Below are positions 11,807 to 22,330 of a stretch of DNA of 64,000 nt, piece by piece (positions within the stretch are counted from its first letter, which is position 1; the number at the start of each line of letters is the position of its first letter). Origin of the DNA: Rhodothermales bacterium (GTDB taxonomy: Bacteria > Bacteroidota > Rhodothermia > Rhodothermales > Bin80). Both the position numbers and the translations under genes were made by a program. The stretch is from contig CATQHT010000002.1 in NCBI GenBank assembly GCA_958296045.1, forward strand, positions 372,001 through 436,000, written 5' to 3'. The notes under the pieces are model-generated. The model did not search any database. It was not told the origin of the DNA and saw only the letters and a list, made by a program, of their open reading frames with translations.

Positions 11807-11915
11807 CTTGGATGGCGATGTCGAACCCATGGGCTACCCTTCACCCGAGGCCTTCAAGCCATTCGAGCGCGGCGCCTTCGACCTCCGACTCGGTGAACGA
11901 AGAGGTGGGTGTCAT
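11806..11915 (-). pseudogene. hsdR: hsdR N-terminal remnant (type I restriction subunit), nonsense-mutated and truncated by an IS1380 end
   Basis: Minus strand from ATG at 11915, overlapping the hsdS stop (ATGA): MTPTSSFTESEVEGAALEWLEGLG(TGA)RVAHGFDIAIQG, matching the HsdR N-terminal style 'FTE..VE.AAL.WLEGLGWQV.HG.DIA.G' with Trp codon replaced by TGA. Confidence 0.75.
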
Positions 11916-13486
11916 GTCGCGGATTCCAATGCTCGCTCGGCATCGGGTACGCGGATCTCGCCCGAAATCAGCTTGGGGAGGAGGGTGTCACGGAGGGCAG
12001 CCAACGTCTGGGATTCCGCAACGACCAACCGGATGCGCGCGTCAAGACTCACAGACATGGCATCAAACGCTTCGGCGATGCGGCGAGCGGGCTCGGTAAC
12101 CTTCAGGGCTTGCAACTGCTCCTTGTTGATCGCGCCGAACACGGTTCCCGTGTGTTCGTATTCCCTCAACTCTCTCTGCAAGGCCCAAGCCGAATGGTAA
12201 GTGAATGAGCTTGAGCCCGACTTGTGTCTCAGTGCCGCCACGCCTCGTCCGACACAACACCGGTTCCATATCACGTTGATGTCCCCTACGGGAGCCCAGA
12301 CGCTGAGTAGCGTATCCTCTGGATTCGCAACGCGAGTCGGCGCGGAACAGAATCTCTGTTTCTCAGGGTAGCGAAAGCCGAACTCCGACCGGCCTTGGAA
12401 GAAAGGCAAGCCATCTCCATGGTGGTTGTAGGTACTACCCGGGGGCGACTGCCCCATCGCTAGTTTCACGCAGTCTCTCCGCGGCTTTACCTCCCACCCC
12501 TCTGGAATCTCCCCTGTCTCGGAATCCACGAGCCGGTCGGGGAACAGGTCGGCGAGGTCTGGCGGCAAGCCCGTGTCCCGGCCCTCCATCTTGGCTCGGA
12601 CCGGATCGAAATCGACGAACCAGGACTTGAACAGCGCCCGCGCTATTGCCTCCAGCGTCTCATTCATCCGCTGGTTCAACTCGATCTTGTCGTCCAAAGT
12701 GCCCAAGACGTGGGCGACGGCGCGTTGCTCAGAGACGGTCGGCACGGCAACCTCAATCTCAAGCGCGGATATGGGCGCAACTCGGTGGTGGCTGTCCGAC
12801 GTGCCAGTAACCCGTTCCAAGAGTGGGGTCCGAAAACTGGGCGACAAGCACAGATAATGAAGGAAGCGGCGATCAATTGATACGGGACGCAGGACCAGAA
12901 ACTCGGTGGAGCAGATCGCAGGCAAATCGTCGTAGACATCGGGAGCCCACACGCGAGGGAATCTCGGGTTGAGCCGGGATACGAGGACCGCATCGGACGG
13001 GACGGTGAATTTGTTGCTCTGGATCACCGAACCGGACTCTAGAACTGGGGACTGCCCATCATCGAAGGCGGAAATTGAATGAAGAGCAAAAAGTCGGTCG
13101 GGAAAGGAGGACGGTGTGATTTGCTCCTTGTGAATGGAGACGAGGCTCCCCAACGGACTACTACGCCAATTCAAGTCGGGTTCCCTGCGGTCCTGCACCA
13201 ACACTACCGGTTGCCGTTCGATCTCCTCACGAAAGCCATCCGACACCTCATGCCAATCCAGCACATCTACCCGCATCGGCAAGTCCGAATCCTCAAACGC
13301 TTCCTTTAACGCTGCGATCAAGCGCGGATTCAGTCGTCCGTGGCCTACAACTGCGATGTCCAGATCGGAGTGATCCCGCGCTGTCCAAGTGGCCCGCGAG
13401 CCAAACGCACGGACCTCACATCCCGGCACATGCTGGGCGAGAATAGCCTTCACCGTGGCGAGCCAGTGGGGGCTCAGGTCAATCAT
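11912..13486 (-). CDS. hsdS: MNT-type nucleotidyltransferase domain fused to type I restriction specificity subunit HsdS
   Basis: From ATG 13486: MIDLSPHW...AFGSRATWTARDHSDLDIAVVG (GSX10DXD) ... VDVLDW, then continuous into HsdS: WRSSPLGSLVSIHKEQ...LPAICSTEFLVLRP...PTVSEQRAVAHVLGTLDDKIELNQRMNETLEAIARALFKSWFVDFDPV...LPKLISGEIRV. Confidence 0.88.
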   Translation of the reverse strand: MIDLSPHWLATVKAILAQHVPGCEVRAFGSRATWTARDHSDLDIAVVGHGRLNPRLIAALKEAFEDSDLPMRVDVLDWHEVSDGFREEIERQPVVLVQDRREPDLNWRSSPLGSLVSIHKEQITPSSFPDRLFALHSISAFDDGQSPVLESGSVIQSNKFTVPSDAVLVSRLNPRFPRVWAPDVYDDLPAICSTEFLVLRPVSIDRRFLHYLCLSPSFRTPLLERVTGTSDSHHRVAPISALEIEVAVPTVSEQRAVAHVLGTLDDKIELNQRMNETLEAIARALFKSWFVDFDPVRAKMEGRDTGLPPDLADLFPDRLVDSETGEIPEGWEVKPRRDCVKLAMGQSPPGSTYNHHGDGLPFFQGRSEFGFRYPEKQRFCSAPTRVANPEDTLLSVWAPVGDINVIWNRCCVGRGVAALRHKSGSSSFTYHSAWALQRELREYEHTGTVFGAINKEQLQALKVTEPARRIAEAFDAMSVSLDARIRLVVAESQTLAALRDTLLPKLISGEIRVPDAERALESAT

Positions 13487-13898
13487 TTCGGGTCTCCAAC
13501 GCACGGAGAAGCGCACGGGCGTCGTGCACGAAATCCACCGTGCCCCGGTACACCGCTTTGGCCTTGTCGAAGTCACAAATGTGGGAAGTCGCGTTCCGCC
13601 CCTCATGGTGCCCCATCCACCTCCCGACATCGTTGATCAGGCGCTTCTCGGCGGCGAGGCGGAAGAGCTGACGCCTTGTCACGCCATCCGCGATGCCTGG
13701 ACTAATGTTCGCGTTCAGCCAGCGGGCGATGAGTTTCCAGCAGAGTTCATAGGTGATCTCGAAGTGCTGGACGACCCCGGCACGGATCGCGACTCGCTCA
13801 ATGTCAGCCAACTGCCCCATTCGCTCATCGTTTCCGCTCACGGCGGAAACTGCGGCAAGGGCATTGAGCGATTTGCGGAGGCTGTCGTACTGGATCAT
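13479..13898 (-). CDS. HEPN-domain protein, HI0074-family nucleotidyltransferase substrate-binding protein
   Basis: 139 aa; [17 protein letters not shown] and [18 protein letters not shown] (RX4H HEPN motif); overlaps hsdM by ATGA and the MNT-HsdS start by 8 bp. Confidence 0.85.
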
Positions 13899-15469
13899 CG
13901 CTGTCCCGTGACGTTCGTTCGAGTCCCCACCGGAAACCCTAGCACCTTCAGGTTCTCGGTGATCGCGGCATCGAGCCGAACCCCTTCGGACTGCTGTTCA
14001 CGAAGCTCCAAGACCAGCCGTTTCATTTTGTGCTCGAACGGCTCGCCGTCTTCCGCCTGCGGCCCCACCCCGACGTATCGGCCCGGCGTGAGCACGTGGC
14101 CGTGCTTGCGGACCTCGTCCATCGAGGCGCTCTTGCAGAAGCCGGGAACATCGGCGTAGCCGTTCCCCTCCTCAGTGGCTCGCCAAGAGTGGTAGGTGTC
14201 CGCGATCCGCGCGATATCTTGGTCGGTGAGTTCGCGGTGCGTCCGGTTCACCATGCGGCCGAGCTTCCTCGCGTCGATGAAAAGAACCTCTCCGCGTCGC
14301 TGACGCTCACGCCCTAGGAACCACAGACAAGCCGGAATCTGGGTCGAGTAGAAAAGCTGGCCCGGCAGCGCGACCATGCAGTCCACGAGTTCCGCCTCGA
14401 TCAAGTTTTTCCGAATCTCGCCCTCGCCAGACTGGCTCGACGACATCGCCCCGTTGGCCAGCACAAACCCCGCAACGCCCTTCGGCGCGAGGTGGTGAAC
14501 CATGTGTTGCACCCAGGCGAAGTTGGCGTTGCTCTTCGGCGGCGCGCCGAAACGCCAGCGCTTGTCCTCAGCCAGCTGCTCGCCGCCCCAGTCCGAAACG
14601 TTGAACGGGGGATTGGCTAGGATGAAGTCCGCTTTCAGGTCTGGATGGCGGTCGTTATGGAAGGCGTCCCCGTGGGCGATCTGGCCCCCGATCCCGCGGA
14701 TTGCTAAGTTCATCTTGGCGAGCCTCCATGTCGTGTAGTTCGACTCCTGCCCGTAGATCGAGATGGCGCCGCGCGCGTTGCTGCCGTTTGCGCTGCCGGT
14801 GGCGTGGGCACGAATGAACTCGACCAACTGCACGAACATGCCAGAAGAGCCGCAGCAGGGATCGTAGATCCGCCCCCGATAGGGTTCCAGCATTTCGACG
14901 AGCAGCCTGACGACGCTGTGCGGGGTGTAGAACTCGCCGCCCCTCTTTCCCTCGCCGCTCGCGAACTGCGAGAGGAAGTACTCGTACACGCGTCCGAGCA
15001 CATCCTTGGAGCGAGCTTCGGCGCCCCCGACGCGGATGTTTCCCACCATGTCGATCAATTGGCCCAAGCGCTGCTTGTCCAGCGCGGGCCGTGCGAAGTC
15101 CTTTGGCAGCACCTCCTTCAGTGCTGGGTTGTCCCGCTCGATGGCCGCCATGGCCCGGTTCACGGTCTGACCGATGGTCGGCTGCCGCGCTTCGGCCTCC
15201 AGGTGCGCCCAACGGGCCTCCGCTGGTACCCAGAAGATGTTTTCTGCGATGTACACGTCGCGGTCCTCCGCAGCCTCTTCACCCCAGTCGGCCAGCACCT
15301 CCGTGCGGCGTTCCTCGAACGCATCCGAGATGTACTTCAGGAAGACGAGCCCGAGCACGACGTGCTTGTACTCGGCAGTATCCAACGAGCCTCGGAGCGC
15401 GTCGGCCATCGCCCACAGCTCGGCCTCGTATCCGGTGGTGGCACTCCCATCGGTCTGCTTGGTGGTCAT
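13895..15469 (-). CDS. hsdM: Type I restriction-modification system methyltransferase subunit HsdM
   Basis: [105 protein letters not shown] (NPPF). Confidence 0.93.
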
Positions 15470-15734
15470 GTCGGTCGTCGTCCTCACTCTAGGTCGCTGT
15501 GGAGGAGCTGGGGAACTCGATCGCGGGGAAAGATAGGACATATCACCTCTCCTACCATCGTGTCCTTACCGATGCAGGATGTAAAGCCCGGTCCTCTGGT
15601 CACCGCAGCAGGCCCGCTACGACCTCAAGCGAGATCGTCGCCAGACGGACGGCGAAGAGGGCTTCGACACGGGTGTAGTCCCGAGCTTCCGGGCGGTGCG
15701 CTGCGAAATTGCCCAATGTCCTTCGCGCGCATAT

Positions 15735-16079: not shown

Positions 16080-16174
16080 AGCTACCTGCGGGAGCAGCCG
16101 TGTGCGTTAACGCGCACGCACGGATCTTTGCGGGGCCCAAGGGAAACCCTGGGGCTACCGCGATGATTCTTCAT
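16080..16174 (+). other. Group II intron 3'-end fragment (domains V-VI only)
   Basis: AGCTACCTGCGGGAGCAGCCGTGTGCGTTAACGCGCACGCACGGATCTTTGCGGGGCCCAAGGGAAACCCTGGGGCTACCGCGAT, nearly identical to the 3' end of the intron at 21280-21985. Confidence 0.75.
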
Positions 16175-20264: not shown

Positions 20265-22330
20265 ATGAAACCAAGCAAGCTGCTGCGCGATGTGCTGAAA
20301 CGCATCCGATCGGCCGCCGGTACATTTGAGGATAACCGTTAGGGGCCCAATCTGCGCTACACGCTGGCCGATGCCGTGTTGAGCGCATTTGCCTGCTTCT
20401 TTCTGCAATCGCCCTCTTTTCTTGCTTTTCAGCGGAGGATGCAGGACGACGTGGGCCGTTCCAACTGCCAGACGCTGTTTGGCATGCAAGGCATTCCCTC
20501 TGACGGGCAGATCCGCAACCTGCTGGACCGCCTGGTGCCAGATTCATTTCAGCTCCTGTTTCTGCACCTGCTGGATACGCTTCGTTCCAAGGGAGACTTT
20601 TCGCCATTTGTACGTCTGAGGGATCGCATCCTCGTGGCGCATGATGGCATCGAGTTTCATTCCTCTCGGACAATCCATTGTCAGCAATGCTCCTCGCGTC
20701 GCACAGGCAAAGACAAGCGTCCCTCGTTCTTCCATACCATGGTGGCGGCGGTTGTGGTGGCGCCAGGGCACAACCGTGTGGTACCTTTGATGCCAGAGTT
20801 TGTCTGCACACAGGATGATCCTGGCGACCAGCACTCGGTGCGGCGTCGCAAGCAGGGTTGCGAGATCAATGCCGCTAAGCGGTGGTTAACGAAGTGGGGA
20901 GCTCGCATGGCTCGCTATCGTCCGGTATATCTGGGAGATGCCCTATATGCTACACACCCCTTTTGCCAACAGGTGCTCCATGCGGGCGCCGATTTCCTGT
21001 TTGTGGTCAAACCCAAGTCGCCACGCTATTCAAGTTTTTACACGAGCGCTATATCCAGAGCACCGATTGGATCCGGGTGCAGAACAAGAAGACACGTCGC
21101 TACGAAGAGCACTGCTATCGCTGGATGACCGATCTGCCGATTCGGAACACGGACGATGCCGTACACGGCACATGGGTGGAAAAGACCGTGCGGGTACGCC
21201 AAAAGCAGGGCACCTACAAGCAGAGACCTTCTACACGACGCTTTTCACCAGCCTGACGGTAACGAAGCACAATGTGCAGGTGCGCCAGGCTAACTGGTGC
21301 CAGTACAGGGAGTGAAAGTCTCCCGATGTGAAGGATTAACCATCCACGCATCTCCTCGAGCCGTGCGTTGGTACCCGCGAGGGTGCCAGCGAAGCGTCGG
21401 TAGAGGTGCGGGTGGGCAGGGCTAATGAGCACCGAAAATGTTATAGTCCGGGATGCCGAGGCTTTCTGCTTGGTCGAAGGCAACACCTTCTTTGCCGTTA
21501 ATGGTGAGGCGGAGGAGGGTCCCGCGGTGTCCAAGAACCCAGGCACGCACGTACGTACTGCATCGGGACCTGGGAGGTCTCTCCATTACCCATCCCTTCG
21601 GGGAGGGTCGCCAAAGCGTAGGCTAAATGCTGATCGGAGGATGTACGGTGGAGAGAAGTCAGATGTGACCATAGTAGCTACGAAGCCAGCGAACAACGCG
21701 TGGATGACCACGGGGCGGAGCCGGTGGAGCCAAGGGTCGCACCCAAGGGGAAAGCGGGAAGCTGGATTCATGCCGGACTCTGGGCCGGATTTCGTGAATC
21801 TTGTCCAATGGCTGTGGACTCAGAGCCACAGTCGGGGCGCAGGTGTACCGCTTACGGCTGGAGGTGGGTATCCCCACTTCCTAACGTCATGCGCGACAGC
21901 GCGACCTGCGGGAGGAGCCGTGTGCGTCACCGCGCACGCACGGATCTGTGCGGGGCCCCAGGGGAAACCCTGGGGCTACCGCGATGAGGTTGCTCGTTGT
22001 GGGCGGGCGCGCTGGAAGATCGAGAACGAGTGCTTCAAGCGCATCGCACGACACGGACAGAACTTCAAACACAATTTCGGGCATGGCAAAAATGGGCTGG
22101 CAAACCTGTTAGCCACCCTCAACCTGTTGGCATTTGCCGTGCATACGACGCTCGACCAAGTAAAAGGGTTGTGGAAGCAATGCCGAGCATCCTACCAGGT
22201 GCGCCGCGATTTCTTTGAGGCGTTGCGGGCACGTACGATACGCTACCCAATTCCCAACTGGCGAAGGCTCTGGGAAAGCATGTTGTTCCGTCCTCCTCCC
22301 CTGCTGGCGCCTTCCGCTGTGAGAGCCTGA
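20265..22330 (+). pseudogene. Decayed IS4-like/DDE transposase interrupted by a group II intron
   Basis: MKPSKLLRDVLKRIRSAAGTFEDNR(TAG)GPNLRYTLADAVLSAFACFFLQSPSFLAFQRRMQ...DFLFVVKPKS (frame 1), frameshift to ATLFKFLHERYIQSTDW...KQGTYK, frameshift to ETFYTTLFTSLTVTKHNVQ, intron, then EVARCGRARWKIENECFKRIARHGQNFKHNFGHGKNGLANLLATLNLLAFAVHT. Confidence 0.85.
21280..21985 (+). other. ORF-less group II intron (706 bp)
   Basis: 5' GTGCGCC...; D5 at 21915-21947 GAGCCGTGTGCGTCACCGCGCACGCACGGATCT; D6 GCGG-GGCCCCAGGGGAAACCCTGGGGC-TA-CCGC-GAT with bulged A at 21978; 3' end AT. Excision joins ...TVTKHNVQ | EVARCGRARWKIENE in frame. No reverse transcriptase ORF. Confidence 0.85.

Follow-up and report, generated by a model that had tools for sequence, protein, structure and literature searches.

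The 706-bp insert at positions 21280-21985 (+ strand) of the window, i.e. the whole 64,000-nucleotide stretch of DNA analysed here, is, on covariance-model and comparative evidence, a genuine ORF-less group II intron, hereafter named intron N. The comparison of its copies in the source genome (an assembly of 4.78 Mb in 4 contigs, 96.7% complete) further suggests that N is very probably a mobile intron, which would have lost its reverse transcriptase (RT) through a deletion in domain IV and spread by retrohoming with the help of the RT of a sister intron, M.

Group II introns begin with GUGYG and end with AY, and are recognised by a 34-nt domain V (D5) with an AGC/CGC triad and a two-nucleotide bulge, and by a domain VI (D6) with a bulged A 7-8 nt from the 3' splice site; in their mobile retroelement form, an RT/maturase ORF is carried in domain IV. 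The ends of N, GTGCGCC starting at 21280 and CTACCGCGAT finishing at 21985, satisfy the end consensus of the group (GTGCG...AT). The Rfam covariance model RF02005 (group-II-D1D4-6) matched the domain I core at 21315-21539 (+) with 175.5 bits (E 3.9e-51; cut-off 49 bits), while a local scan of the D5-D6 region with RF00029 gave a match at 21913-21985 which stops on the predicted last base of the intron and scores 37.0 bits (E 1.6e-5), narrowly missing the gathering score of 40 by 3 bits. Specifically, D5 has the classical 34 nt (21914-21947, +), with the catalytic AGC at 21916-21918, and is followed by D6 (21948-21982, +), in which the unpaired branch-point A (21978) occupies the eighth place counting back from the 3' end. 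Following alignment with sister introns and relatives, changes on both sides of a pair that preserve the pairing were found in 70 of the 131 pairs of the D1-D4a consensus, and in 8 of the 26 pairs of D5-D6. These data bear out the initial annotation, which had proposed an ORF-less group II intron with an AGC-bearing D5 and a bulged A at 21978, and had indicated covariance models as the means to check it. In addition, ORF translations and the comparison with M revealed no RT within the 706 nt, as the same annotation had stated, and a 301-aa frame beginning inside N only reads through the ribozyme into exon 2.

The gene interrupted by N is an IS4-like DDE transposase gene, of which about 20 other copies, together with fragments, occur in the genome. 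Exon 1 (20265-21279, +) corresponds to the 5' part of the gene, is frameshifted and is 96% identical to the intact copy L081, and exon 2 (21986-22330, +) corresponds to the 3' part. Transposase copies L080-L083 are uninterrupted across ...CACAATGT[G/A]CAG/GAGGTTGCTC..., where the slash marks the intron N junction, and exactly reproduce the junction 21279/21986 previously deduced from the window; in particular L081, an intact relative that could have placed the junction elsewhere, agrees with it, retaining an open 453-aa frame that reads TVTKHNVQEVARCGRARWKIENE over this point. Compared to L081, the window transposase has lost 4 nt near 21022 and gained 2 nt at 21222-21223; these two frameshifts both precede the intron and bear out the decay already suspected. 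Pfam searches on the two pieces of the window transposase returned no matches, and weak DDE/IS4 matches were obtained with the intact transposase copy only. Since the host transposase is already frameshifted, splicing would bring no visible benefit at the window site. The window also contains a truncated copy of N at 16081-16164 (+), reduced to the D5-D6 end (intron positions 622-706, 92% identical); near it, ORFs resembling type I restriction-modification specificity and methylation subunits lie on the - strand at 11912-15541.

Other ORF-less copies, the search for which had been suggested by the initial annotation, proved to be numerous. The genome contains 17 contiguous full-length copies of N, with identities of 94-100%, and eight copies interrupted by other introns, amounting to about 25 places in total; among the family genomes compared, RF02005 matches number 58 in the source genome and at most 16 in any other. 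N is found in IS transposase genes, in a small number of ordinary genes and within other group II introns. It lies on the sense strand in two genes, one for a peptidase M1 (L015) and one for a PD40 beta-propeller protein (L016), and when their exons are joined in silico the reading frame stays open over 727 and 709 aa, respectively. In two further long genes (L009 and L010) N is antisense, so that splicing would be no rescue for the host gene. At L009 (C3:1768900-1772600) the antisense copy separates the halves of an 857-aa frame, the second of which matches an Orn/Arg/DAP decarboxylase domain, and this host gene may be split.

These antisense insertions, the four 3'-truncated copies (L026, L027, L028 and L035) and the decayed transposase of the window would be compatible with N being a dead or dying relic, whose copies were left by earlier movement and which neither splices nor moves now. 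However, some copies are 99-100% identical despite lying in unrelated sites, D5 and D6 are intact and show compensatory changes, host genes that are not mobile still give long open frames once their exons are joined, and the RT genes are intact; all together, we regard a relic as distinctly improbable and a mobile N as the preferred reading.

A full-length relative endowed with an RT ORF, whose search had likewise been indicated at the outset, was found in intron M, 1926 nt long, which encodes an RT/maturase (357 bits against group_II_RT_mat) with the full 504-aa frame intact in nine copies. M and N are about 81% identical over D1-D4a (first 474 nt), and they have in common the 3' end of the ribozyme, the RF02005 class and a helix in domain IVa, the region where maturases bind. 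In the window copy, domain IVa and a leftover 5' end of the lost RT ORF (GEKSD..IVA..PAN, compared to MEKSDTGIVAKKAAN in M) map to 21650-21753 (+), as supported by the N/M alignment and by a covarying helix (A2 columns 396-473), while a putative leftover 3' end, suggested by translation (..VMRDSATCGRSRVR, compared to YVAMHAGATQGRSRMR in M), maps to 21887-21933 (+) and extends into D5. Because both ends of the M-type ORF are recognisable on the two sides of the gap, N appears to have arisen by internal deletion. The 3' end of M reads ...GAG, unlike the usual AY (L032, L037, L063 and other M copies), and was placed there because M and M-containing N occupy the same site in P introns, a further intron type described below.

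Outside the source genome, one scan of genome contigs found relatives of the M RT, with identities of up to 66%, in many phyla. An N-type ORF-less intron, 74% identical and retaining the ...CGCGAT end, occurs in another genus of the same family, which argues for long-term upkeep without the ORF; a different ORF-less form, closer to M, is present in other genera of the family, and taken together the two forms suggest that ORF loss is old or repeated. Nested intron fragments of the same kinds were also observed in the genome of a further member of this family, G016 (L180, L181 and L183).

We infer, with good support, that N needs a maturase in trans, and the RT of M is the likely enzyme acting on it. 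Two further intron types of the genome, F453 and E, have intact RTs as well, and RTs in Thermosynechococcus elongatus serve several introns (PMC2882425), so that a protein from F453 or E might act instead, as might a host factor, or N could self-splice free of protein. The ribozymes of F453 and P (RF01999) and that of E (RF02003), however, belong to classes other than that of N, while M shares with it both RF02005 and the IVa helix; the supply of the function by something other than M is accordingly judged unlikely, and the RT of M is retained as the candidate.

In group II introns, the insertion site is specified by pairing between the exon-binding site of the intron (EBS1) and IBS1, the six bases with which the 5' exon of N ends. 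Intron positions 183-194 form a loop with a pairwise diversity of 0.25, compared to 0.02-0.07 elsewhere in N. Within this loop, bases 187-192 pair with the copy's own 5' exon better than with the exons of the others (mean score 7.88 vs 4.00, z 6.9, 0 of 2000 shuffles), a test performed on 24 distinct N insertions, any copies alike in both site and EBS1 entering it as a single case. Clear pairs are TTCTTG/CAAGAA (L063), TCTATC/GGTAGA (L033) and CTGCTT/AAGCAG (L010). Judging by this covariation, EBS1-IBS1 pairing specifies the insertion site of N. In the window, EBS1 corresponds to CTGCTT at 21466-21471 (+), in the copy-specific hypervariable loop, and IBS1 to GTGCAG at 21274-21279 (+), the last six bases of exon 1. 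The initial annotation had instead assigned EBS1 to CTGCAT at 21558-21563 (+); this motif is near-invariant in N copies despite their differing targets and shows no comparable covariation, and the assignment has to be abandoned. The pairing of the window copy is imperfect, with four Watson-Crick pairs, one G-U and one mismatch, so this copy could have come by less specific retrotransposition; poor pairing is also found in some other N copies (L022 and L027).

Many of the hosts are IS transposase genes, and one IS605-type target recurs at several loci (L011, L013, L029 and L035), as might be expected if N owed its spread mainly to recombination and to hitch-hiking on DNA transposons rather than to retrohoming. 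On the other hand, the targets are unrelated to one another, the junctions are exact and without target duplication, and the EBS1 of each copy matches the IBS1 of its own site, all of which makes hitch-hiking as the main route extremely improbable.

The data are therefore best read in terms of retrohoming, and the following course of events may be proposed. An internal deletion in domain IV would have removed the RT from N, while the whole ribozyme and domain IVa were kept. The RT/maturase produced by M copies at other loci would bind the excised N RNA, which would reverse-splice into DNA at sites where the final six 5'-exon bases can pair with EBS1; the RT of M would then copy the reverse-spliced intron. 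New EBS1 sequences would give access to new targets, namely IS transposases, a few ordinary genes and group II introns. It should be specified that we infer both the splicing of N in the cell and the trans role of M from sequence comparison.

The insertion of introns into other introns is a general feature of this genome, in which five intron families (N, M, P, F453 and E), belonging to three Rfam ribozyme classes, invade each other up to four levels deep. P is ORF-less (679 nt, RF01999), while F453 (1899 nt, RF01999) and E (1968 nt, RF02003) encode an RT. M occupies a single position of N, 387/388 in domain IVa, in seven N copies spanning the diversity of N, and its EBS1, GCATTT, pairs with AGATGC/T at this site; the corresponding position of the window copy (T387/G388, 21666-21667, +) is empty. 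Variants of M found within P and F453 have an EBS1 altered to fit those sites. Two nests reach four levels, F453[P[N[M]]] at L063 (C3:762000-772000) and F453[M[P[M][N]]] at L058 (C3:2352000-2371000), and when the inner introns were removed by script each host returned to within about 3 nt of its reference length, the outer M of L058 with a 295-nt element in addition. This element, located at 11554-11848 of L058, is MITE-like and has terminal inverted repeats CCCAAGTTTGTCA...TGACAAACTTGGG. Tandem insertions at one site were observed at L025, L029 and L033.

A different kind of target emerges from the E-type introns. In six of the seven cases in the source genome, the 3' end of E abuts directly on the D6 of a second group II intron, placing E immediately behind the D5 of its host, the hosts being N in three cases and F453- or P-type introns in the other three (E copies L191-L196). 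Where the 5' end of E is complete (L065, L066 and L064), a D5 hairpin is found directly upstream. In N, the insertion position lies just 3' of D5; it is filled in L065 and L066, and empty in the window copy (21945-21946, +). Comparable indications came from plasmid E-type relatives, whose RTs are 56-64% identical: a D5 hairpin lies directly upstream at nine distinct sites (L219, L220, L221, L224, L226, L227, L229, L232 and L233), in plasmids of Bradyrhizobium, Caballeronia, Paraburkholderia and Cupriavidus, with the host D6 following at several of them, while four other sites are not after D5. Since this plasmid sample was partly picked with a D5-containing query, it is biased to D5 sites and the fraction is not a rate. 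Less biased in this respect are the copies of the source genome, given above, and six hits of a protein search in different organisms (H1, H2, H3, H7, H16 and H17), of which three lie after D5.

In conclusion, we consider it probable that the E lineage (RF02003) targets the D5 hairpin, landing exactly between D5 and D6 of introns of at least two unrelated ribozyme classes. D5 is the element least open to change in a group II intron and, if this proposal is true, E would for this reason be a parasite of group II introns generally, with N as one host. In other genomes of the same family, the E RT has one match only, a relative with 42% identity. The best PDB matches of the E RT are the GsI-IIC RT and another group II RT, the same chains matched by the RTs of M and F453, so that these matches do not discriminate between RT classes. 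A literature search for introns targeting D5 found no report in the sources covered, most subscription journals being outside this coverage. A D5-directed lineage, if confirmed, would represent a new kind of group II target and a natural system of hairpin recognition.

Group II introns that lack an ORF and depend on an enzyme supplied in trans commonly serve as a model of how self-sufficient retroelements might have turned into the scattered, protein-dependent kind of intron seen in eukaryotes, and to our knowledge few bacterial cases exist. A literature search on group II introns in sponge symbionts returned no relevant report. The source genome offers a rich case besides the cyanobacterial one, in which a single ORF-less family numbers about 25 copies and is accompanied by the presumed donor enzyme; retargeting is visible in EBS1, and the four-level nests directly show in which order the introns invaded.

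By comparison with known systems, the way of life proposed for N matches that of the ORF-less introns of T. elongatus, and in this respect is already known. There, too, the ORF-less introns (TeI3/TeI4) derive from a sister RT intron by a deletion in domain IV that left both ends of the ORF (PMC2882425), families differ in EBS, and insertions occur in IS elements and in domain IV of introns near the start of the RT (PMC2882425). The two systems differ in that in T. elongatus an ORF-less intron lies inside an RT-bearing one, while here it is mostly the RT-bearing M that lies inside the ORF-less N, and in that all 28 introns of T. elongatus are of one lineage (PMC2882425), compared to five families and three ribozyme classes here. 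Moreover, trans-mobilisation of the ORF-less TeI3 introns by a driver RT was demonstrated by experiment (PMC2882425), while in the present case such a role is suggested by sequence. Repeated homing of introns into introns, with both ORF-less and RT-bearing forms, is also described for the nests of Methanosarcina acetivorans (Dai and Zimmerly 2003, as cited in PMC4424553); according to that secondary account, these belong to an archaeon and reach five introns per nest, while the nests reported here are bacterial, four levels deep and of mixed ribozyme classes. In the bacterium Trichodesmium erythraeum, one intron-in-intron arrangement, or twintron, occurs in a protein gene, and its ORF-less introns are likewise thought to need trans maturases; its sequential splicing was seen in the cell (PMC4649490), while our nests are known from their sequence. 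As regards E, group IIC introns insert after terminator or attC hairpins (PMC4424553, PMC7923331), and E similarly lies right after a DNA hairpin and has a short 5'-exon motif ending in T, with the difference that its hairpin is the domain V of another group II intron. By analogy, D5 may be one more hairpin used in this way. Set against these systems, the present genome may surprise specialists by mixing introns of several ribozyme classes and by nesting them so deeply for a bacterium, and most of all by the candidate D5-directed lineage.
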